Shown here: positions 10,149-22,304 of the stretch, piece by piece
Position numbering within the stretch: the stretch's first letter is position 1
Layout: every line of letters begins with the position of its first letter
Virus record (IMG/VR): IMGVR_UViG_3300032296_002858
Span: 1 to 23,906 of that record
Direction: 5' to 3' (one strand)
DNA length: 23,906 nt
DNA from: a virus
Notes under the pieces: generated by a model
Database searches by the model: none
What the model saw: the letters and a program-made list of their open reading frames with translations, nothing else
What the model was told of the DNA's origin: nothing
Program-made: the position numbers and the translations under genes

Positions 10149-10171
10149 TGATTTCTTAAGAAAAGAAATCA
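10149..10171 (-). other. 9-bp perfect inverted repeat across the stop codon of the 1233-aa gene
   Basis: TGATTTCTT (10149-10157) is perfectly complementary to AAGAAATCA (10163-10171), with a 5-base loop. It covers the last codons and TAA of the 1233-aa gene. No T-tract follows on either strand, so it is not a classical terminator. It could be an RNA-processing or stabilising structure between two large virion genes, or a chance AT-rich palindrome. Confidence 0.4.
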
Positions 10172-13100
10172 AATAGACCACCGAAATCAGAAGCTTCTTC
10201 TTCCTTTTTACGCTTTGGCTGCTCGGGCGGCGCACCACCCGTTCCTTCCAAATCGAACAAAGCCCCTAGTCCACCCTGTCCAGCGAATTTACCCATCGGA
10301 GTTTTTGCCGTTCCGGGCTTATCGGAAGCCCGAACGTCTCCCGCCAAGGTATCAATGAAATCGCCAAACGGGTTGTTTTCTACATCCCGGTAATCACCCC
10401 AATATTTTTGGCCAGCCTTGGGCTGAGCCGTTTCGTCGGTGGCGACCACATTAAGATCCGAAGGACGACGGGGCGGAAGTGGTGCGCCCATCTCCGACAT
10501 TTGCGGCCCAACATTCGGATGAGACGCAGGGAATTCCGGACCCATATTCGCGTGAGACGCAGGAAGCTCAGGACCAAGTGATTTCCCCGGCTCATGCAAA
10601 TAATTTACCTCGTTTGCATATGCCGAGCTAACCGGATTTAGGACGTTCAATAAGCTGGCGACAAATCCACGAGCCCGCTCATTTGGAGACGCCGCAGCGG
10701 CACGAGTGGGACCAACGGACTCAGTTCCAATTGTCTCACCTGTAAATTTCGGAAGCGGCATATTCAGCGCTTCAGAATTACCGGCAATTCCACGAACCGC
10801 ATCAAGCGCCGCAGAATAATACGGTTTAAACTTACCGGATGTATATGTCGTCCAGTTCTTTAGACCACCGCGACCGCGCAAAAGCTGGAGAGCCGCTTTA
10901 GCATTTGTCACGGGATCATACAGATCAGACTTGCTGGATAGGCCAAACTGACGCATGCGCTCAGGACCCATTTTCCCAAGCATATTAATCTGCCACAAGC
11001 CATAAGATTCATCGCCTGTTCCGCGATTAAAATTATGAATGTTGTAGACGCCACTGCTTTCCGGCATTGCAATAGCAGTCAAAATTGCAGCTTCGCGCGG
11101 AGTAGCGCCCGCCTGCAAAGCTGCACGAGCGATTTCCTGCATGCTTAATTTGGATCCTCTGGATCCGCCTGAAGCCTTCTCAACAGCTCCGCCATCTTTA
11201 GAACCAATACGGTTTGTCACCTGTTTTAGAACATCAGAGCTTAAATCATTGCTAAGATTTAAGCCGGGGGCCAATCCGTAAGACTGCGGAGTTCCGCGAT
11301 ACGGAGCATCATATTTGATATTAAACAATCCAGTGTATGGATTAAATTGAGTATCTTGAAGGCTTGAAAAATACCCCTGAACAGGCGCATTGCTGCGGAA
11401 AATATCAGGAATGCTTTGATATTCTGGTGAAGATTCAAAACGGGACGCAATCTGAGACGCCGGCATGCCTTTCGACAGTTGATCTTTCCAAAAATTAAGA
11501 CCACCTAGATCCGGCGCGCGGCCAAATGCATCCGAATACATTTGATTCAGGAATGCAGTGTTCTGACCCTCTCTGGACGATTGCACCGTCGCTTCAACGG
11601 CAGACGGTGTTTTTCCGCCCTTCATATCATTGATATGAACATTGATTTCATCCTGCGTCGGATTACGACCCATATAATTCTGATAAACAGAGTTCAGAAA
11701 ATTTGTATATGGGTTTGCAGGAGTTTCACGGGGAGGCTGATTTTTGACGGCCTCTTCTAAATCACCCAATGAAGCCGGAGCTGCCGGAGTTGGATTTGCC
11801 GAGACAGCCATCTGAACGGCAATTGCCGGATTGATTCCGGACTGAGCCAGTCCAAGAGCCATGATCTGCTGACGAGACTGCGCATCGCTAACAGATGCAT
11901 TATAAGCATTTCTTGCATTTGCAAGAGCCGTTTCAGCCTCTGTTGCCGGAGCAACGCCGGGATCAACAAATTTATCAGGAAGCCCCATGCTACCGGCAAT
12001 ATTCAAATTACCGCCAATAACACCGGGATAGGAAGGACGTTGTCCTGAATAATATGCCTGACTAGGCATAGAAGGCATGCCCTGCTGCTCAGGAGTTAAC
12101 TGAGGACCGGGATTATTAGCCATTGCGCGTTTAAGCAGCTGATCATAGCCGCCAATTTTTGTGGCGTCCTGATTTACAGCCTGAGACTGCTGGATTCCGC
12201 CAGTCTGCTGATATTCGGGGCTGTTGTAAAAGTCAGTCCGAACAGCTTCTGGAGTTCTTCCAGCGGCTCTCTGCTGCGTCCAAAAATCAAAACCGCCCTG
12301 CTCGGCAGTTCTTCCAAGAATGTTTTTATAGTCCGAAAGAACTTCCTGAGCCTGATCTTTAGCCTGTTGAGCCCGCTGTGCCTGCTCTGCAAAAGTTCCG
12401 CCATCAGCAAAACCAACACGACCACCCTTTTTAAAGGATGGAAGCGCGCCTTCAAATGCAGACCCAATATCACCTAAACTGATATTAGATTTATTAGCTG
12501 CGGCTTTAAGAAAATCAGCCCCAGCGCCAAGAGCTTTGCCGTAATCTTCTCCGGAGTCTCCATCCTGCGCTCCAAAGAATTTAGACTTAATGCCGCTTTC
12601 CTGTTCCTTAAAATCAGGCTCGCTCTTAACATTAAGCATTTTATTAATTTCACGACTTAGGTTTTCAGCCGCCAATTTATTTGCGGGCTTCAGAACCTGA
12701 GACGTCTTTTCAGCTCGTGAAATATAATCATCTCCGCCAGCATAAGGCTGTTTGTTCATTAAAGAACCAAACCCAGCAGCAAGATCAATAGGACCTTCGC
12801 CATACGGAGCATCTTTCATATGCTCCATGTATCCGCCATCAGCCTTATGTGTGCGATCTTTTACAACGCCGCCCTTGGCAAGCAGTCCGCCAGAAAAAGC
12901 TTTTGTCGCAAGCCCAAGGCCAGTGGTTAACAGTCCAGCCAATCCACCACCGCCAGATTGATTCTGGTAAGGTTGCCAGCCTTGCTGTGCTCCTTGCGTA
13001 TTCGACGTTGTAGATGTCGTCCCATACTGACCAAGAAGCGGACCAAGGCCCTGTGCAAGACTTCCAAAGTAAGAGGTCTGCTGATAAGGATAAGCCTTAG

Positions 13101-13857
13101 CCTGCTGCCACTGCTCAAAAGCTTTATTAAGTTGCTGCTGACCAAGAGCCTGCTGTTGCGCACCAGACTGATACAGTGCGCCAAGTTCACTGCCCCGAGC
13201 AGCAAGCGACTGGTTGCCCAATCCTGCCTGTTGAGCGCCACCACGAAGAAGCGTATCAATTGCCTGTTGCTGCTGCTGATTATACTGGCCCATCGCCTGC
13301 TGATAATTTGCAGAGTTAAGACCGGCCAACGTCTGAGCATTTGACAAACCAAGCTGACGCATCTGTTCAGCGCGACCAAGCGCCTGACCAGAACCACCGT
13401 AAGATCCACGACGAACAGATTCGGCATTATTTTTGACGAACATTTCGTCTTGATTTTGCTTCATCTGAGCAAGAGTCGCATCAATAACGCTCTGCTGATA
13501 AGGGTTCATATAACGCTGAAGACTGCCAAAATTGTATTGGTTCGGATCCGCCAATCCAGCCGCCTGATTTGTCATGGCGGAAGCTTGGTTGATATAGGGC
13601 TGTGTAATGCCCTGAATATCGCGATATCCCTGCATCGCGGCGATCTGGTCCGGCGTAAACCCAGCGACTTGCTGACCCTGATAAGGCTGATAGGGCGTAT
13701 TCGCGATTTGGGCCGCATTCTGAAGCGTCTGTATATACGCAAGACTAGCAAGAGGATCCGGAACCTGAGCCGAAATACCGCTGCCCTGCGTCGTGGAATT
13801 CGTGGACTGAGCAGTCGGATAATATCCACCAATCGGGCTGGTATTCTTGGATCCCAT
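10156..13857 (-). CDS. Giant internal-virion protein with three DUF4214-like repeats and a lysozyme-like domain (1233 aa)
   Basis: ATG at 13857 behind AAGGA. Residues 1-330 are Gln/Ala/Tyr/Gly-rich. Double-GG motifs follow (LAKGGVVKDRTHKADGG, FKKGGRVGFADGGTF). Three DUF4214-like repeats lie at about 505-550 (YKNILGRTAEQGGFDFW), 718-765 (VYQNYMGRNPTQDEIN, degenerate) and 768-815 (MYSDAFGRAPDLGGLNFW). Residues about 905-1020 look like a lysozyme or transglycosylase fold: AILTAIAMPESSGV (Glu933 is the candidate catalytic acid), then ESYGLWQINM at 950-959. The C-terminus holds repeated PASHxN(M/V)GP blocks and the YWGDYRD module shared with the 1017-aa protein. Likely an ejected tail or core protein that locally cuts peptidoglycan, analogous to T7 gp16. 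Confidence 0.82.
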   Translation of the reverse strand: MGSKNTSPIGGYYPTAQSTNSTTQGSGISAQVPDPLASLAYIQTLQNAAQIANTPYQPYQGQQVAGFTPDQIAAMQGYRDIQGITQPYINQASAMTNQAAGLADPNQYNFGSLQRYMNPYQQSVIDATLAQMKQNQDEMFVKNNAESVRRGSYGGSGQALGRAEQMRQLGLSNAQTLAGLNSANYQQAMGQYNQQQQQAIDTLLRGGAQQAGLGNQSLAARGSELGALYQSGAQQQALGQQQLNKAFEQWQQAKAYPYQQTSYFGSLAQGLGPLLGQYGTTSTTSNTQGAQQGWQPYQNQSGGGGLAGLLTTGLGLATKAFSGGLLAKGGVVKDRTHKADGGYMEHMKDAPYGEGPIDLAAGFGSLMNKQPYAGGDDYISRAEKTSQVLKPANKLAAENLSREINKMLNVKSEPDFKEQESGIKSKFFGAQDGDSGEDYGKALGAGADFLKAAANKSNISLGDIGSAFEGALPSFKKGGRVGFADGGTFAEQAQRAQQAKDQAQEVLSDYKNILGRTAEQGGFDFWTQQRAAGRTPEAVRTDFYNSPEYQQTGGIQQSQAVNQDATKIGGYDQLLKRAMANNPGPQLTPEQQGMPSMPSQAYYSGQRPSYPGVIGGNLNIAGSMGLPDKFVDPGVAPATEAETALANARNAYNASVSDAQSRQQIMALGLAQSGINPAIAVQMAVSANPTPAAPASLGDLEEAVKNQPPRETPANPYTNFLNSVYQNYMGRNPTQDEINVHINDMKGGKTPSAVEATVQSSREGQNTAFLNQMYSDAFGRAPDLGGLNFWKDQLSKGMPASQIASRFESSPEYQSIPDIFRSNAPVQGYFSSLQDTQFNPYTGLFNIKYDAPYRGTPQSYGLAPGLNLSNDLSSDVLKQVTNRIGSKDGGAVEKASGGSRGSKLSMQEIARAALQAGATPREAAILTAIAMPESSGVYNIHNFNRGTGDESYGLWQINMLGKMGPERMRQFGLSSKSDLYDPVTNAKAALQLLRGRGGLKNWTTYTSGKFKPYYSAALDAVRGIAGNSEALNMPLPKFTGETIGTESVGPTRAAAASPNERARGFVASLLNVLNPVSSAYANEVNYLHEPGKSLGPELPASHANMGPEFPASHPNVGPQMSEMGAPLPPRRPSDLNVVATDETAQPKAGQKYWGDYRDVENNPFGDFIDTLAGDVRASDKPGTAKTPMGKFAGQGGLGALFDLEGTGGAPPEQPKRKKEEEASDFGGLFDFFS

Positions 13858-13868
13858 GATCTAATTCC

Positions 13869-14354
13869 TTATGCGTTCTGTTCAGCCGACGACGGACGAT
13901 ACATGAAATAAGCACCGACAGTTTTGAACTGTCTCTGATAAAGCCGGATCTTTGCCTCTGTTCTGGAATTGGAAAAAACGCCAATTGTCAGATCAAGGGA
14001 AAGCCCCTCAGACGCCTGCTTAGAAAACTGCATCAACTGCTTGGCGCGATCAGATTTTCTATGATCCGGATGAACAAAAAGACTCAACTCTAACAGCTGC
14101 ATTGTTCCGGGCTTAGCATACCATATTTCGTCTAAAATCATCAACAAATACGCTTCGGGATGGCCCACTTCTCCGATGACAGAAATGATCGCTCCCTGCT
14201 TGTCATAGTAACGACGAAGCATGTTCATTACGCGCTCTTCATCCATCTCATGCTGGGCGTCTTCACGACAGGCCACTCGCATAAGTTCAAGAAGCCCCGG
14301 AAGATCCTCCGGCAATGCGAGCCGAACGTCAGGGCAACTAGAAAAATCCGTCAT
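13869..14354 (-). CDS. GNAT-like acetyltransferase fold protein (161 aa)
   Basis: ATG at 14354 behind AAGAGG. The layout is GNAT-like: an N-terminal VRLALPEDLPGLLELMRVAC helix entry, a central strand before EIWYAK, then LLELSLFVHPDHRKSDRAKQ, which corresponds to the beta4-alpha3 acetyl-CoA site, and a C-terminal RLYQRQFKTVGAYFMYR. The usual R/Q-x-x-G-x-G/A loop reads R99-KSDR-A104, so the central glycine is missing. It may be a divergent or catalytically weak member. GNAT-like genes inside podophage structural blocks are known. The substrate is unknown; virion or host protein acetylation is only a guess. Confidence 0.72.
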   Translation of the reverse strand: MTDFSSCPDVRLALPEDLPGLLELMRVACREDAQHEMDEERVMNMLRRYYDKQGAIISVIGEVGHPEAYLLMILDEIWYAKPGTMQLLELSLFVHPDHRKSDRAKQLMQFSKQASEGLSLDLTIGVFSNSRTEAKIRLYQRQFKTVGAYFMYRPSSAEQNA

Positions 14355-14981: not shown

Positions 14982-15350
14982 TTAATACACCGAATAGGTT
15001 ATATTGGCTTCGATAGGGGCATTTACGACAAGCACTATTCCATTTGTAAACTCTAAACCAGCGGGATGCACACCAATATCCGCAGTGCTATCAAGGAAAA
15101 ACTTCAAGCTTGAAGCGGGGATAATTGTTGTGGAAGAGCTATCATACAGGCTTAAGTCGCCGCCCATAGTAACAATTGTTGCAGAAACAACTCTGCAACG
15201 ACCATGAAATATTTTTACTGTTGACAGACCCGCCGCAGGATATGTGTCCGAAGTAAACTGACCGTTGATATACTGCAACGTTTTATTGATAGAGCTGAAC
15301 GCAATAACAAGGTTTTGTGTTGCTGTTGTTAGTGTGTCATTGCCAGCCAT
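14982..15350 (-). CDS. Small beta-rich virion protein, hypothetical (122 aa)
   Basis: ATG at 15350 overlaps the previous TAA (TAATG) and has an excellent GGAGG ribosome binding site. The sequence is Ser/Thr/Val/Ile-rich with short alternating strands (VKIFHGRCRVVSATIVTMGG, FTNGIVLVVNAPIEANITYS), typical of a beta-sandwich structural or decoration protein. There is no signal or membrane segment. Its place directly after the tail hub suggests a tail- or head-associated accessory protein. No family recognised with confidence. Confidence 0.6.
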   Translation of the reverse strand: MAGNDTLTTATQNLVIAFSSINKTLQYINGQFTSDTYPAAGLSTVKIFHGRCRVVSATIVTMGGDLSLYDSSSTTIIPASSLKFFLDSTADIGVHPAGLEFTNGIVLVVNAPIEANITYSVY

Positions 15351-16537
15351 TATCGCCTCCCGCTCGGCGCAAAGCGATAACGAATCGATCCCAATCGCCA
15401 GAAACTGCCAAGATCTTCGCTTTCAATTTTCATTGCGACAAATCTGCCTCTAAATCGAGGACTTAAATACGGAACCTGTTCTGTTGCCGTATATGGTCCA
15501 TAAACTCTTGGCGTCTGACCGGCGTAATCGGCCACATAGAATGTGAATTTTACTTCGGCAGATGTCGTCTGTGAGTATGTCCCCCATTTCATGTCTGGGA
15601 GCATCCAATCGACAAATATTAAATCTTCGCCATTTGTAAGACTTTGATAACCTGTCTTCAGCGAAGAAGATATTGGAACGGTCGTTTCGCCAACTGCCAA
15701 GTTATATGATGTTTCATGCTGGTAAATCCAGCCGTCTGCATCTGATCCGATAGGAAAACCAAGGACCGATTGATCAGTCCAAGCCGTTCTTCCTAAATAA
15801 CCATAATCCCATTCTTGGTACAGGGTGTTGTAACAGACATAAGCATCCGGGAAGGTCCCCGGACCATTTACTGTAGAAAAATACCAAATAACTTCGTTAA
15901 AAAGAGAGTTACCGCCGCAAATTGTTCCAGCTAGTAGATCTTGAGTTGAATTTTGGAAAATAAAATCCCAAACAGAACACGGAAGAGGTTGCGGAGCAGA
16001 ACCAGCTTGGCAGACAAAGAACTGCTCTTGGCTCATCCAATAGATGGAGTTATTGACAATGTTAACGCCACGCGGAGAAATAAGTCCGCAGCCTGCGCCA
16101 ATTTTAAGGAAGCTAAAGAAGTCCGGATATGACGTATATTGGGCGGAATAAACGTCAATATCAGTGAACCAAAACTGCTGGTTTGGTGCCTGAATTCCAC
16201 GAACTATTTTTGATCCAGTCGGAATTGTATAATAACCAGCCGAACTTTGTCCGCCAATTGTCCAATTGTTTATATCTGTCGAGTCAGACCATCGAATATA
16301 CAATGGGTCTTGTATTGGGTTTATGTTATCGCATGTCCCCCAAGCCATAATCTGACCGGATGGCATAGCAACAAAAGAACCCTTACTTGCGATGGGAGCG
16401 CCAGTTAAAATTGATAAATTTTGATAACCACCTACCGGAGAATAGGTAAATATAGGCCCATCTTGGGCCGACGCAATTAACGTCGATCCAATATTATCTA
16501 ACCACCAATTCGGTGTAACATATGTAGAATTAGTCAT
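15350..16537 (-). CDS. Podophage tail hub / DNA-stabilisation-type protein, C-terminal part (395 aa)
   Basis: Contains the repeat-like beta segments of podophage hub proteins (P22 gp10-like role): NWWLDNIGSTLIASAQDGPI, FVAMPSGQIMAWGTCD, YIRWSDSTDINNWTIGG, PRGVNIVNNSIYWMSQEQFF and the end GSFWRLGSIRYRFAPSGRR. In relatives I remember, this follows in one chain from the N-terminal part carried by the gene just upstream. Here the two are separated by a single in-frame TAA and three codons (GGT AAC GTT). AAGG overlapping that stop lies 7 nt before the ATG at 16537, so re-initiation is possible. Would close the portal and hold packaged DNA. Confidence 0.75.
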   Translation of the reverse strand: MTNSTYVTPNWWLDNIGSTLIASAQDGPIFTYSPVGGYQNLSILTGAPIASKGSFVAMPSGQIMAWGTCDNINPIQDPLYIRWSDSTDINNWTIGGQSSAGYYTIPTGSKIVRGIQAPNQQFWFTDIDVYSAQYTSYPDFFSFLKIGAGCGLISPRGVNIVNNSIYWMSQEQFFVCQAGSAPQPLPCSVWDFIFQNSTQDLLAGTICGGNSLFNEVIWYFSTVNGPGTFPDAYVCYNTLYQEWDYGYLGRTAWTDQSVLGFPIGSDADGWIYQHETSYNLAVGETTVPISSSLKTGYQSLTNGEDLIFVDWMLPDMKWGTYSQTTSAEVKFTFYVADYAGQTPRVYGPYTATEQVPYLSPRFRGRFVAMKIESEDLGSFWRLGSIRYRFAPSGRR

Positions 16538-16546
16538 AACGTTACC

Positions 16547-17368
16547 TTATGGCGGTGCATTATTAGGCGGAGTTGTTATCCAATATCTTAAGCTAACAAA
16601 TCCTCCGTTCATCGTTTGTGTATCTGTTGAAGTGGCCGAATACTGCGCTTGGAAAGTGAAAGATGTCGATCCAAGAATTTGTAAAACGACATAGCTTCCA
16701 ATGATTGGAATGCCGCCAACGGTTGTTTGTATGGTGAAACCAATTCTATCTCCAGCAGCTAGGCTGTCGAATTGATATTGAATTGGAAAAGTAACAATCA
16801 CACGCGACAAGCTGTTTGTCGTCTGGAAAACCGGTAAAGTCCCGGCTACTGCTGTTTCAGTAGACGTTGCCGCATATCCAGCATCAATCACATAAGTATT
16901 AACGCCAGCCGGTGATTGAACCGGATATATTCCATTTAAAATCAATCCGCCGACCGAAACGGGCGTATTAAACTGCACGGAATCATAAAGAGTTACGCCC
17001 GGTTCTGTGGCGTCTGTAATTGTTACAAACTCACTGCCAACAGCAGTTGTAAACGTAGGGCTGGCGGTTAATGAATCATAATATAAAGGCGAAATATCTT
17101 TTAAAGATGTGTTTGTAACATCATACGCATAAACTTTGTTTGGTGTGGCGATTCCAAGATAATTCCCACCTTGAAAACTTGCCCAAGGTTTTAATGATAC
17201 TGGAGCGCCTTCAACGGCCTGATCTAAATATAAAGTGCAACCTCCGCGCTTTTCAGGAAGCGCAGCACGCCAGCGAACAAAATTACTCTCCTGCGCGCCA
17301 GACGGGTTATCTGCCGGAGACGTTTCCGTGTTGACACTCGGAATAAGATTAATCTCTGCAAAAGGCAC
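16547..17368 (-). CDS. Podophage tail hub-type protein, N-terminal part (273 aa), ending at an in-frame TAA
   Basis: GTG start at 17368; AAGAGG, which also encodes the last KR of the upstream gene, is the ribosome binding site. The opening is diagnostic of the hub family: INLIPSVNTETSPADNPSG, then FVRWRAALPEKRGGCTLYLD, and GGNYLGIATPNKVYAYDVTN. Next is a beta-rich region (YDSVQFNTPVSVGGLILNGI). It ends TTPPNNAPP followed by TAA at 16547-16549, and the frame then stays open through the whole downstream ORF. A single base change at TAA would restore one 672-residue protein. Either a natural two-chain hub, a recoded stop, or a nonsense mutation or sequence error. Confidence 0.75.
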   Translation of the reverse strand: MPFAEINLIPSVNTETSPADNPSGAQESNFVRWRAALPEKRGGCTLYLDQAVEGAPVSLKPWASFQGGNYLGIATPNKVYAYDVTNTSLKDISPLYYDSLTASPTFTTAVGSEFVTITDATEPGVTLYDSVQFNTPVSVGGLILNGIYPVQSPAGVNTYVIDAGYAATSTETAVAGTLPVFQTTNSLSRVIVTFPIQYQFDSLAAGDRIGFTIQTTVGGIPIIGSYVVLQILGSTSFTFQAQYSATSTDTQTMNGGFVSLRYWITTPPNNAPP

Positions 17369-17371
17369 TTT

Positions 17372-18079
17372 TTACCTCTTCGGAGAAATCGGAGTAGAAG
17401 ACAAAGATGTCCAACCGGGTCCGGCAAACTTTTTGCGAAGTTCAAGAAGTGTCGCAGATTTAAACAACGTCTGATACTGATTTTCCCAAGACTGTGCTTG
17501 CTGTGGGTTATCAGCCTGAGACCCAAAGTCTCGCATATAGCCAGATGCAAAAACCATCGATGCAGCTGTAAACAAATCTTCCAGATAAACAGTTAAAAAT
17601 GTCGTCGGATTTGTAGCAGACAACGGAGCGGGCTGAACTGTTCCGATAATTTCAATTGGGTAATCCTGATCAGGCCAAGGACCGACAATAATGTTGAACT
17701 GATTGACCATTGCAAACTCTTTAGGGACTCCGGGACGATCCCCACTGTTCCAAACAGCGTTAAGATAATCCATGCTCACAGCAGTCATCTGGTTTCTTGT
17801 TCCAGTATCAGCCGTGGCAGTATAGGGAGTAATCACATTCACGCCGGTAACTGTATAAAAAATACCGTTGGTAGCGTTTGTAGGAAGGGTAAAAGATCGA
17901 TTCCCGGCTGTTAGATTCTGTGTCGCATTGGCGACAACTGTATTAAGCAGATCTAACTCACGATAAATTCTGTTTTCGGCATATGGAATCATACCATCAA
18001 CCATGAGTAAAAACTCAGTGGTTGTCGGATCTGCCGCCATTAAGTTGGCGATTTGGGCGATATATGAAGTGTAATTCAT
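17372..18079 (-). CDS. Head-tail adaptor protein (235 aa)
   Basis: N-terminal helices (YTSYIAQIANLMAADPTTTE, then MIPYAENRIYRELDLLNTVV) are followed by a beta-rich insertion (TAGNRSFTLPTNATN, FNIIVGPWPDQDYPIEIIGT) and a C-terminal helix pair (YLEDLFTAASMVFASGYMRD, then SWENQYQTLFKSA and LLELRKKFAGPG). This pattern of helices, small beta domain and helix with YLpdLF and W..QY..L is typical of podophage adaptor proteins that sit under the portal (P22 gp4-like role). Its position directly before the hub gene agrees. The ribosome binding site for its ATG is weak (AAGG); it ends 3 nt before the hub's GTG. Confidence 0.8.
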   Translation of the reverse strand: MNYTSYIAQIANLMAADPTTTEFLLMVDGMIPYAENRIYRELDLLNTVVANATQNLTAGNRSFTLPTNATNGIFYTVTGVNVITPYTATADTGTRNQMTAVSMDYLNAVWNSGDRPGVPKEFAMVNQFNIIVGPWPDQDYPIEIIGTVQPAPLSATNPTTFLTVYLEDLFTAASMVFASGYMRDFGSQADNPQQAQSWENQYQTLFKSATLLELRKKFAGPGWTSLSSTPISPKR

Positions 18080-18352: not shown

Positions 18353-19930
18353 CTAACCTTTTGCTATTGCTTCTTCAAGCCATTTTAGGTTGCTTTGAAG
18401 ACGCGGATCGTTTGGCTCTTTTTCAACGGCAATTTTTGCCTGCTCAAGAGACAAATTTTTAAGGCCAAGATGCCACGCAGCGATTGAAGCCAAATCATGA
18501 GGCTGCGCGCCCCAGACCATCGGATCGCAAGTGTAAACAAGCTCCCGATCTTTTATCCTTAAAGCGCGCATGGCAAAGGCAAACGATTCCTCCCAACGAT
18601 GCTGCATATACATCAGTAGAGAAAGAGCGCACCAAGGCTCACGCGTGTTAGGGGCCTCTCCGCAAGCGCTGTGATAGGCTTTTTCGGCCTCAACCACATT
18701 GCCCATGCCTTCATAGCATTTGCCCATCACACGATATGCGTAACAACGCTCATTACCCCATGTCGCCCCCGGAAGAGCGAGATATCGTTTACATTCTCTT
18801 AGGGCTTCCTCCCAACGCGAATAGAAGGAAAGCTCACGGGCATAATAGAAAGCGTTGCGCGGACAATTTGGATCTTCTTTTACGGAAAGCTCCAAAAGAT
18901 CTAAATACTGACCACGGCTCTTTGTCGGATCAGGATGATGAGAAACAAGCAGCTTACTTGTATAAGCATACTTCTCATTTATTCTGCCGTCCGGCATCGG
19001 ATATTCGTGGCATGGATGGTGCCAATAATATCCATGACGAGCATGGATTTTTTCGTATTGGAAGCTGATTCCACAACCCCAATCGAACATATATCTGAGG
19101 CGAGTTGTTCCATCGACCCAAACTCGTTCTATTTCCTGACGCCATCCCGGTTCCATGACCTCATCAACATCTAAAGAGACGCAGATGTCGATATCTTTGG
19201 GGATAAGGGCAATAGACGCATTTCTGGCGTGGTCAAAACGCCAAGGGGTAATGCAGATCTCATGGACTGTAATACCTGCTTCGCGGGCAAATTTTACCGT
19301 CTGATCCGTAGATCCAGTATCTGCAATAAGAAGAAGATCAGCCTCACGCGCCGAATCAGCCCAACGCTTAACAAACTGTTCTTCGTTTTTGCTGATGGCA
19401 TAGACGCAGATTTTTGGTCCTAGCTTCTGATTTGACCAGCAATAGACGCCAATTTCGTTGTCAATAGCGCTCCATGTCGGATTGCCGAAGACTTCTTTAA
19501 ATTTGGCGTCAGACCAGTCATCGACAACGTGAGCTTCATGCGGATTGCCATTGTATTCTCCTTGCGGATAATGGCCAATCGGAATTGAAACAATCACGGT
19601 GTCAGCAATAGACCGCAGCTTTTCAACAAGCGTTTTCGCCTCTTCAGCGGTCATATGCTCAAGAACATCGCCAGCGATTGCAACATCAAAGCGACCGAGC
19701 GCCTCGTAATCGATCTCTTTGGCGTCCGCGACGATGAGCTGAGTATACAAATCTGCTAACTGAAACTGCTCAACATACGGCTCAAATATCTCAATTCCGA
19801 CAATATGAGCAGTTGGGAGCAGTTTTGCATAAGTGCCGCTTCCAGCACCTATGTCTAACACCTTCTCTTTTTTTACGCGGGAAAGGATATTCTTAATATG
19901 CTGTTTCCCGCTCTCAGAACTATACGGCAT
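18353..19930 (-). CDS. Methyltransferase - GT2 glycosyltransferase - TPR fusion protein (525 aa)
   Basis: ATG at 19930 behind GAGGTG. Residues 1-165 are a class I SAM-dependent methyltransferase: VLDIGAGSGTY (24-34, motif I), GIEIFEPY, VADAKEIDY and AGDVLEHM (86-93). Residues about 172-335 are a GT-A, family-2-like glycosyltransferase: CVYAISKNEEQFVKRW, ADTGSTDQT (nucleotide-sugar binding) and LDVDE with the metal-binding D254-V-D256. Residues about 340-520 are TPR-like helical repeats (FYYARELSFYSRWEEALREC, AYRVMGKCYEGMGNVVEAEK). It would transfer a sugar and methylate it or its acceptor; the acceptor is unknown (virion protein, host glycan). No transmembrane segment. It sits amid tail genes rather than replication genes. 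Confidence 0.85.
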   Translation of the reverse strand: MPYSSESGKQHIKNILSRVKKEKVLDIGAGSGTYAKLLPTAHIVGIEIFEPYVEQFQLADLYTQLIVADAKEIDYEALGRFDVAIAGDVLEHMTAEEAKTLVEKLRSIADTVIVSIPIGHYPQGEYNGNPHEAHVVDDWSDAKFKEVFGNPTWSAIDNEIGVYCWSNQKLGPKICVYAISKNEEQFVKRWADSAREADLLLIADTGSTDQTVKFAREAGITVHEICITPWRFDHARNASIALIPKDIDICVSLDVDEVMEPGWRQEIERVWVDGTTRLRYMFDWGCGISFQYEKIHARHGYYWHHPCHEYPMPDGRINEKYAYTSKLLVSHHPDPTKSRGQYLDLLELSVKEDPNCPRNAFYYARELSFYSRWEEALRECKRYLALPGATWGNERCYAYRVMGKCYEGMGNVVEAEKAYHSACGEAPNTREPWCALSLLMYMQHRWEESFAFAMRALRIKDRELVYTCDPMVWGAQPHDLASIAAWHLGLKNLSLEQAKIAVEKEPNDPRLQSNLKWLEEAIAKG

Positions 19931-20724: not shown

Positions 20725-20966
20725 TTAGGTTCTCCGTTAATAATAACCGTAGACGTGTCCCTGTCTATTGATAAGAACCCGTCACAGGCAATGTTCCAAT
20801 CTTCACCAGTTTGCTCGTCCCATGAAGGCACGTTTATCTTAACATGCTTCGCCAAATATTCCTTGCTGCCGTTCTCAAAAACCCGCCAGACATGGTCCTT
20901 TGTCCCACGGCCCGGCTGGCCGCGCTGTTTGTTAAATCTTATTAAAAAATGTGATTTATCAGCCAT
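20721..20966 (-). CDS. Conserved small phage protein, hypothetical (81 aa)
   Basis: The ATG at 20966 lies just inside the end of the homing-endonuclease gene (8-nt overlap). A TTG-started longer frame would run further into that gene and is rejected. The sequence is MADKSHFLIRFNKQRGQPGR, then HVWRVFENGSKEYLAKHVKI, and ends with DWNIACDGFLSIDRDTSTVI. The single-domain alpha/beta look and high conservation of such FNKxRGQPGRGT proteins near podophage tail genes are from memory. Function unknown. A weak GGAAATG site precedes it, so it is probably translated by coupling. Confidence 0.65.
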   Translation of the reverse strand: MADKSHFLIRFNKQRGQPGRGTKDHVWRVFENGSKEYLAKHVKINVPSWDEQTGEDWNIACDGFLSIDRDTSTVIINGEPK

Positions 20967-21675
20967 TAACGCACATTTCCAGCTTTTTTTTCTCACGCCA
21001 TTTTTTCTGGGCAATACTCATTCTTATTTTCGCTTCTTCCGAGTGCTTTCTTCCCTCATTCATTTTACCGTATTTATTCCCTATTAATCTTTCTTTTGCG
21101 TCTGGACGTAATTTTCCTTTATTAAATTTGCCCCAATTATTCCCAAGAGATCTACTTGATAGCGCTTGTTTAGCAGCATTACTTACAGAATGCCCTTCAC
21201 CATTTTTATTTCCTTTAAGGGAATTTGAAATTTTTTTCTTTGTTTCTTCTGAAACAATATAATTTGGGCGATTAGGTGATCTACCCTTTTTACCTTTGCT
21301 AATATTTTTAGCATGCTCAAGAGATTTATTTTTCCCAATATGCGCGCATCTTAATTTTTCTTTTGTTTCTTTAGAAACAATTATTCCAGATACCCCCTCT
21401 CCGCCATCTGTAAGATTAGCTAAATCAGCCCCATCCGCTCTCCAAAAAACTATTCTAGCTATTTCTATATCAAATGCTTCTTGCTCTGACAGTCCACCAA
21501 AAATAATTTTAATCTCTATAGCCAAACCTAAATTAGAAAGTTTTTGTTGAATAGATTTATGAAATATATTTCTATCTTTCATTTTATATGCACGATTACC
21601 AGTCCCCTTGCCCACATAAAAACATTCGTTTTTATCTGTTCTCCAATGCTCATAAACATAAAATTTGCCGTTCAT
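20959..21675 (-). CDS. GIY-YIG homing endonuclease with NUMOD3-type repeats (238 aa)
   Basis: The N-terminal nuclease (about 1-95) has the variant motifs FYVYEH (GIY-like) and CFYVGKG (YIG-like), Arg28 in GNRAY, acidic SEQEAFDIEIARI with a candidate metal-binding Glu, and ANLTDGGEGVSG. Several NUMOD3-like DNA-binding units follow: VSKETKEKLRCAHIG, VSEETKKKISNSLKG and HSEEAKIRMSIAQKK. Visibly more AT-rich and lysine-rich than its neighbours, as expected for recent acquisition. It would cut a DNA site in related phages that lack it and spread by repair. ATG overlaps the previous TGA (ATGA), and its own TGA overlaps the next gene by 8 nt, so it is inserted without breaking either neighbour. Confidence 0.88.
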   Translation of the reverse strand: MNGKFYVYEHWRTDKNECFYVGKGTGNRAYKMKDRNIFHKSIQQKLSNLGLAIEIKIIFGGLSEQEAFDIEIARIVFWRADGADLANLTDGGEGVSGIIVSKETKEKLRCAHIGKNKSLEHAKNISKGKKGRSPNRPNYIVSEETKKKISNSLKGNKNGEGHSVSNAAKQALSSRSLGNNWGKFNKGKLRPDAKERLIGNKYGKMNEGRKHSEEAKIRMSIAQKKWREKKKLEMCVNG

Positions 21676-22304
21676 ATAACCTCTACCTCACAGGCTGGCT
21701 GCGTGTTATCGACCAAGGAAATATTAAAATGAACAAACCGGAAAGGCTCCGTGCTGCCGTTTTTAGTAAAGCTATGCGGGAGCCAAGCATTTGTTAACAC
21801 CAGAACTCCCGGTTCTGGCTGGAAGTGAAAAGCATTCGAGGCGTAGGTGATATTTGACATATCATCTTCCGAAATGCCCAACTGCGTCTTACCCGGCCTT
21901 GGGTCATGGAACGTCGCCGCGCATGAGCCTTCTGGCGTGTCAAGGAAGTAAAACCCAACCATCTGGACGCCATTATGGTGGATGTGCTGGTCCATCTGGC
22001 TAAATTTATGGTGCTCCTGCGCCCACATTTCAGTGAAAAATGCCGCCTTTTCTCTGACGTTATAGCCCTGTTCCCGCAAGATATTGAGAGCCGTAACGGC
22101 GGTATAGGCGCAAAAGTCCTGTATGCTTGGGTCTTGCGAAATGTCTCCCGTCATTTTGACCGGGTAGATCTCATTTAACTCATGGTCGATATCAGCAAGC
22201 GCCGCGTTAGCAGATTTGCGAACAGCGTCCAGAAACTCCATTTTTTTTATGGAGTAAACCATTGTCGGGAAACAATGAATATTATCTAAAACATCGTCAG
22301 ACAT
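21672..22304 (-). CDS. 2-oxoglutarate/Fe(II)-dependent oxygenase-like protein (210 aa)
   Basis: Double-stranded beta-helix oxygenase pattern (2OG-FeII_Oxy_5-like): MDQHIHHNGVQMVGFYFLDT with His107/109/110, TFHDPRPGK, then PGVLVLTNAWLPHSF with the distal His177 and EPFRFVHFNIS with Arg189 as candidate 2-oxoglutarate anchor. The iron ligands are inferred from the family: a histidine of the HIHH cluster plus His177; the acidic ligand is not clear. Phages often carry such hydroxylases near tail genes; targets (protein, nucleotide or glycan) are unknown. Overlaps the upstream gene by 8 nt and the nuclease by 4 nt. Confidence 0.8.
   Translation of the reverse strand: MSDDVLDNIHCFPTMVYSIKKMEFLDAVRKSANAALADIDHELNEIYPVKMTGDISQDPSIQDFCAYTAVTALNILREQGYNVREKAAFFTEMWAQEHHKFSQMDQHIHHNGVQMVGFYFLDTPEGSCAATFHDPRPGKTQLGISEDDMSNITYASNAFHFQPEPGVLVLTNAWLPHSFTKNGSTEPFRFVHFNISLVDNTQPACEVEVI

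Follow-up and report, generated by a model that had tools for sequence, protein, structure and literature searches.

The closest described counterparts of the locus presented here are the tail nozzles of podophages. Three parts make up the SU10 nozzle: its platform, a propeller of seven blades, and nozzle domains that interrupt the propeller between blades 2 and 3; blade 1 is completed by strands of both domain ends (PMC9509320). SU10 gp17, Pa223 9nwi_Y, Vibrio VP1 gp16, and P22 gp10 have a common sequence family, a propeller-with-insertion fold, and a position after the tail adaptor in common with the gene described below. All four are single chains, whereas in the window (the whole stretch of DNA analyzed from an uncultured bacterial virus, 23,906 nucleotides) a stop and a new start interrupt the reading frame where the inserted domain leads back into the propeller. 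One chain per nozzle is usual without defining homology, and the window departs from it by an in-frame TAA at the linker.

Split genes have been described in other phages, namely, nrdA in Aeh1 and gene 43 (43A/43B) in the Aeromonas phages 25 and 44RR. Of these, the split nrdA is active, and copurification was seen for the gene 43 products of phage 25 (PMC2988022). As with the window nozzle, one ancestral protein comes from two adjacent genes, and relatives are fused. Those cases concern enzymes whose halves are separated by a homing endonuclease gene or by untranslated sequence (PMC2988022), whereas the window split affects a structural protein, leaves only nine bases between the genes, and, unlike the T4-like cases, is without an inserted element. 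No precedent for a split nozzle was found in the literature searched, a null result that carries little weight. Here, we report, from a single metagenomic contig, a nozzle gene that has probably (at about 0.72) undergone genuine fission into two translationally coupled genes with coassembling products; we infer that two chains are made, that their translation is coupled, and that they assemble together.

Results

The minus-strand frame 17368-15350 contains exactly one internal stop on translation, TAA 16549-16547 (Table 1). It is preceded by 273 codons from GTG 17368, taken as the true start on the alignment of relatives from the same residue (MPFAE), and followed by three codons (GGT AAC GTT) and then ATG 16537, from which 395 codons run to the terminal TAA 15352-15350. 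Nine bases separate the stop of chain A from the start of chain B (gap, +9 nt), and the product joined across the stop has 672 residues. The first-pass annotation had described this frame as open save for the TAA at 16547-16549, with three codons between the stop and ATG 16537 and a Shine-Dalgarno sequence overlapping the stop. The translation agreed with every coordinate, the three codons were read in the sequence, and TAAGG (16549-16545) includes the TAA.

Table 1. Coordinates of the nozzle locus and of the junction used for comparison
Feature	Coordinates	Strand	Details
SU10-type tail adaptor	17372..18079	-	Pfam PF24175, 61.4 bits (cutoff, 27)
Nozzle chain A	16547..17368	-	273 aa, GTG start, TAA stop
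In-frame TAA, stop of chain A	16547..16549	-	Doubles as first three bases of TAAGG
TAAGG, Shine-Dalgarno-like site	16545..16549	-	Ends 7 nt ahead of ATG 16537
Linker, nozzle domain (YWITT) to next propeller strand (NWWLD)	16505..16582	-	Hypervariable in relatives
Nozzle chain B	15350..16537	-	395 aa, ATG start, TAA stop
Comparison junction, same genome	13857..13871	-	TAA 13871-13869 within TAAGGA, then ATG 13857

Chain A residues 5-123 matched positions 7-125 of the PHROG 3287 profile (E value, 2.7e-8), chain B residues 3-395 matched positions 100-524 (E value, 1.1e-36), and fused relatives matched positions 13-524; the family is annotated as virion structural protein. The PF24175 adaptor lies directly upstream of chain A, ending 3 nt before its start, and a tail adaptor was matched in all of the relative genomes searched (6/6). 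The frame, read through the stop, was modeled with AlphaFold2 from a 35-row alignment (mean pLDDT, 87.3; pTM, 0.84). For this joined model, the best solved structures in Foldseek were all tail nozzles (Pa223 [9nwi_Y], E value of 3.1e-25; SU10, 4.6e-24), with further nozzle matches to Vibrio VP1 (gp16; 9e-17) and P22 gp10 (7.5e-13). It shows a platform and a beta-propeller with an inserted nozzle domain, domain borders being assigned from SU10. On its predicted fold, we identify the joined product as the nozzle of a podophage tail, the ring by which the viral DNA exits. The earlier suggestion that both halves carry parts of one podophage hub protein is borne out by the complementary PHROG 3287 matches, the nozzle fold, and the adaptor-adjacent gene order.

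From the profile ranges matched by the two chains, about 150 residues just before the break form an insert missing from the 524-position PHROG 3287 profile. Minimal nozzles of about 470 to 500 residues exist, for example, that of Sinorhizobium phiM5, recorded as detected in the phage particle proteome. The break falls at the C-terminal edge of the insert, where the nozzle domain returns to the beta-propeller. By analogy with SU10, the inserted nozzle domain would belong to chain A, together with the first blades and the N-terminal part of the platform; the remaining blades, the propeller closure, and the C-terminal part of the platform would fall to chain B. Across 35 aligned relatives, the linker at the break varies in length between 18 and 132 residues, with its sequence wholly changed and an extra module in some; it makes up only ~4% of the nozzle gene, and no other loop of the joined model, the last residues aside, was predicted with less confidence (block 271-280; pLDDT, 56).

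A beta-rich module, VSGV..YNG(T/S)W.VT....SF, recurs at three different nozzle insertion points among relatives: the N-half insert (L010), the linker (L026, L027, L061, L075, and L089), and the C half (L013). It has the look of a shuffled module.

Chain A modeled alone with AlphaFold2 (pLDDT, 80.9) gave a confident nozzle domain, with block means of 81 to 98 over residues 101-260; residues 1-45 were not confident. Block means for the first 40 residues were 38 to 48 alone versus 64 to 85 in the joined model, a comparison that is suggestive only, the two models having been built from different alignments. Because residues 1-40 lose confidence in the model of chain A alone and the nozzle domain keeps it, chain A probably needs chain B for its N-terminal strands.

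The gene was compared with 183 distinct relatives drawn from viral contigs, bacterial assemblies, and annotated phages, and none of them was split at the nozzle linker (0/183). A conserved TAA had been put forward in the first-pass annotation as the discriminator between a restart and random nonsense; among the relatives compared, no such conservation was seen, the TAA being present in this contig only. A break of any kind in the nozzle gene was found in two relatives (2/183), in each case away from the joint and with no restart after it: a TGA that hits a conserved Trp in the C half (L125:4972-4974) and a frameshift (L114:2749-2773). Together, they put the background of errors or decay at roughly 1%. 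Some annotated phages had two features where the match lay and were considered as splits; these were rejected, the second feature being the next gene. No nozzle relative was found in a first bacterial genome search; a wider one gave 11 relatives, none of them split at the joint. An exact search for the junction, and for one nearby stretch, found no copies in viral contigs, a set that may lack near-identical records.

The window's nozzle nests in a clade of fused genes (L001, L006, L007, and L020; tree support, 98/96 and 100/100), which are 57 to 79% identical to it in both halves; the nearest fused relative is 73% identical over the full length. These four uncultured relatives have the same adaptor upstream and one unbroken frame of 668 to 704 codons with a linker of 22 to 45 residues, where the window has a stop and a restart. 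Because the window's nozzle nests among fused genes, the split is, on this phylogeny, the derived state. Two complete adjacent frames cover one ancestral protein whose relatives are fused, as expected of a gene fission, and the window would probably encode a two-chain ring where every relative found has one chain. Identity to the closer fused relatives over their N part is 43 to 69% for chain A, and that of chain B to fused relatives is 44 to 79%. In both halves, codons differ from those of relatives at 51 to 61% of third positions and 10 to 26% of second positions. Both halves are under protein-level constraint, since third positions differ far more than second positions.

If the stop were an error of sequencing or assembly, or a recent nonsense change in one virus, and an internal start followed it by chance, the normal product would be one chain or the virus would be defective. 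This explanation fits a stop confined to one contig and the presence of disruptions in assembled relatives (the L125 TGA and the L114 frameshift), and the constraint on both halves would outlast a recent nonsense change. We nevertheless consider it unlikely. The L125 and L114 breaks sit in conserved sequence, whereas that of the window sits in the small stretch where a break is tolerated; the remaining large genes of the window are intact. ATG 16537 is the only start codon in the 2-kb frame with an anti-Shine-Dalgarno match of at least five bases at usable spacing. The expectation by chance was estimated by placing TAA at every codon of 14 fused relatives and seeking an in-frame start with a site of at least five bases within six codons. 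An ATG with a comparable site followed the random TAA at only 26 of 9,474 positions (0.27%), or 0.81% with GTG and TTG also allowed, values that serve as guides rather than P values, the criteria having been set after the site was seen. The stop/restart arrangement is also used between other genes of the window: the gene pair 13869-14354/10156-13857 has its stop inside TAAGGA, as at the nozzle joint, and the TAA stop of the adaptor overlaps the ribosome site of chain A. The nozzle joint thus resembles the real gene boundaries of this virus.

Programmed or regulated readthrough of the TAA, yielding some full-length nozzle beside a short form, would accord with two halves that lie in the same frame only three codons apart and with a joined length (672) that fits the fused relatives of the nearest clade (668 to 704 codons). 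We regard it as improbable. Descent from a fused gene accounts for the shared frame, and readthrough needs neither the Shine-Dalgarno site nor the ATG. The stop is UAA, which is generally the least leaky stop. No unusual RNA structure was found around or after it (z scores, −0.43 and −1.62), and, although readthrough signals are usually conserved, the stop is conserved in none of the 183 relatives.

Reassignment of TAA to an amino acid in the virus or its host is scarcely credible, with nothing in its favor beyond the open frame. TAA terminates 10 of the 19 genes in the window, the adaptor and the nozzle frame included; there is no other internal TAA, and no tRNA genes of any kind were found in the window. 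General recoding, which the first-pass annotation had already discounted, was rejected on the same TAA count. Of the three options that it had left for the split, two-chain reinitiation gained support from the relatives, the junction anatomy, and the position of the break between domains; regulated readthrough gained none, and a nonsense change or error is disfavored by the anatomy of the restart.

Several other genes of the window were noted. The frame 20959-21675 is a likely homing endonuclease within the structural gene cluster (NUMOD3 motif, Pfam), and its N terminus, YVYEHWRTDKNECFYVGKGTGNR, is GIY-YIG-like by eye. It was considered as a cause of the split; it lies ~3.6 kb upstream, nothing is inserted between the halves, and no link is claimed. 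Just upstream of the adaptor region, 18353-19930 combines a methyltransferase domain, a weak family 2 glycosyltransferase match, and tetratricopeptide repeats in one frame. An acetyltransferase-like (GNAT) gene, 13869-14354, lies between the nozzle and ejection genes; an acetyltransferase is also annotated near the nozzle in the distant phages L100, L102, L146, L148, and L150. The adjacent frame 10156-13857 encodes a probable ejection protein of 1,233 residues, a single chain carrying both DUF4214 and lysozyme-like/SLT domains. In the structural region, 21672-22304 is a putative 2OG-Fe(II) oxygenase (PF13759). Near the contig edge, 22920-23867 (TTG start uncertain) encodes a strongly repetitive protein with NSTRGIFALGG...TRDKYTYACDTNGSA units, for which no convincing Pfam family was found.

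Discussion

Under the fission reading, an ancestral one-chain nozzle gene would have been split at the linker where the inserted domain reenters the beta-propeller. Ribosomes would finish chain A at TAA 16547, and the stop-containing TAAGG would place them, or freshly recruited ribosomes, at ATG 16537, nine bases downstream, so that chain B is then made in step with chain A. Gaps of −8 to +10 nt are predictive of termination-reinitiation, and pairs this close show an enrichment for subunits of a single complex; at +9 to +12 nt, the second gene may instead be initiated independently, from a ribosome site of its own (PMC10666635). The +9-nt gap of the nozzle joint, with TAAGG 7 nt before the ATG, falls within the range for coupling. 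Either route, reinitiation or independent initiation, would yield two chains from one message.

Interleaved folds, as predicted for the two chains, would let both be built into one ring: the N-terminal strands of chain A would join the platform and the first blade, which chain B completes. It is a long shot that the halves are kept apart on purpose, with the nozzle-domain chain made or loaded at another ratio or time than the propeller chain and the moving part of the nozzle serving as an exchangeable subunit.

As a two-chain product of gene fission, the split nozzle would be a new twist on a known part, represented so far by one assembled sequence. Should it prove real, a ring protein that has to contain packaged DNA under pressure would exist naturally in a two-chain form. 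Its propeller would be able to close from two pieces, its inserted nozzle domain would be a separable module, and the peptide linker between them would be replaceable by a short stretch with a stop, a ribosome site, and a start.
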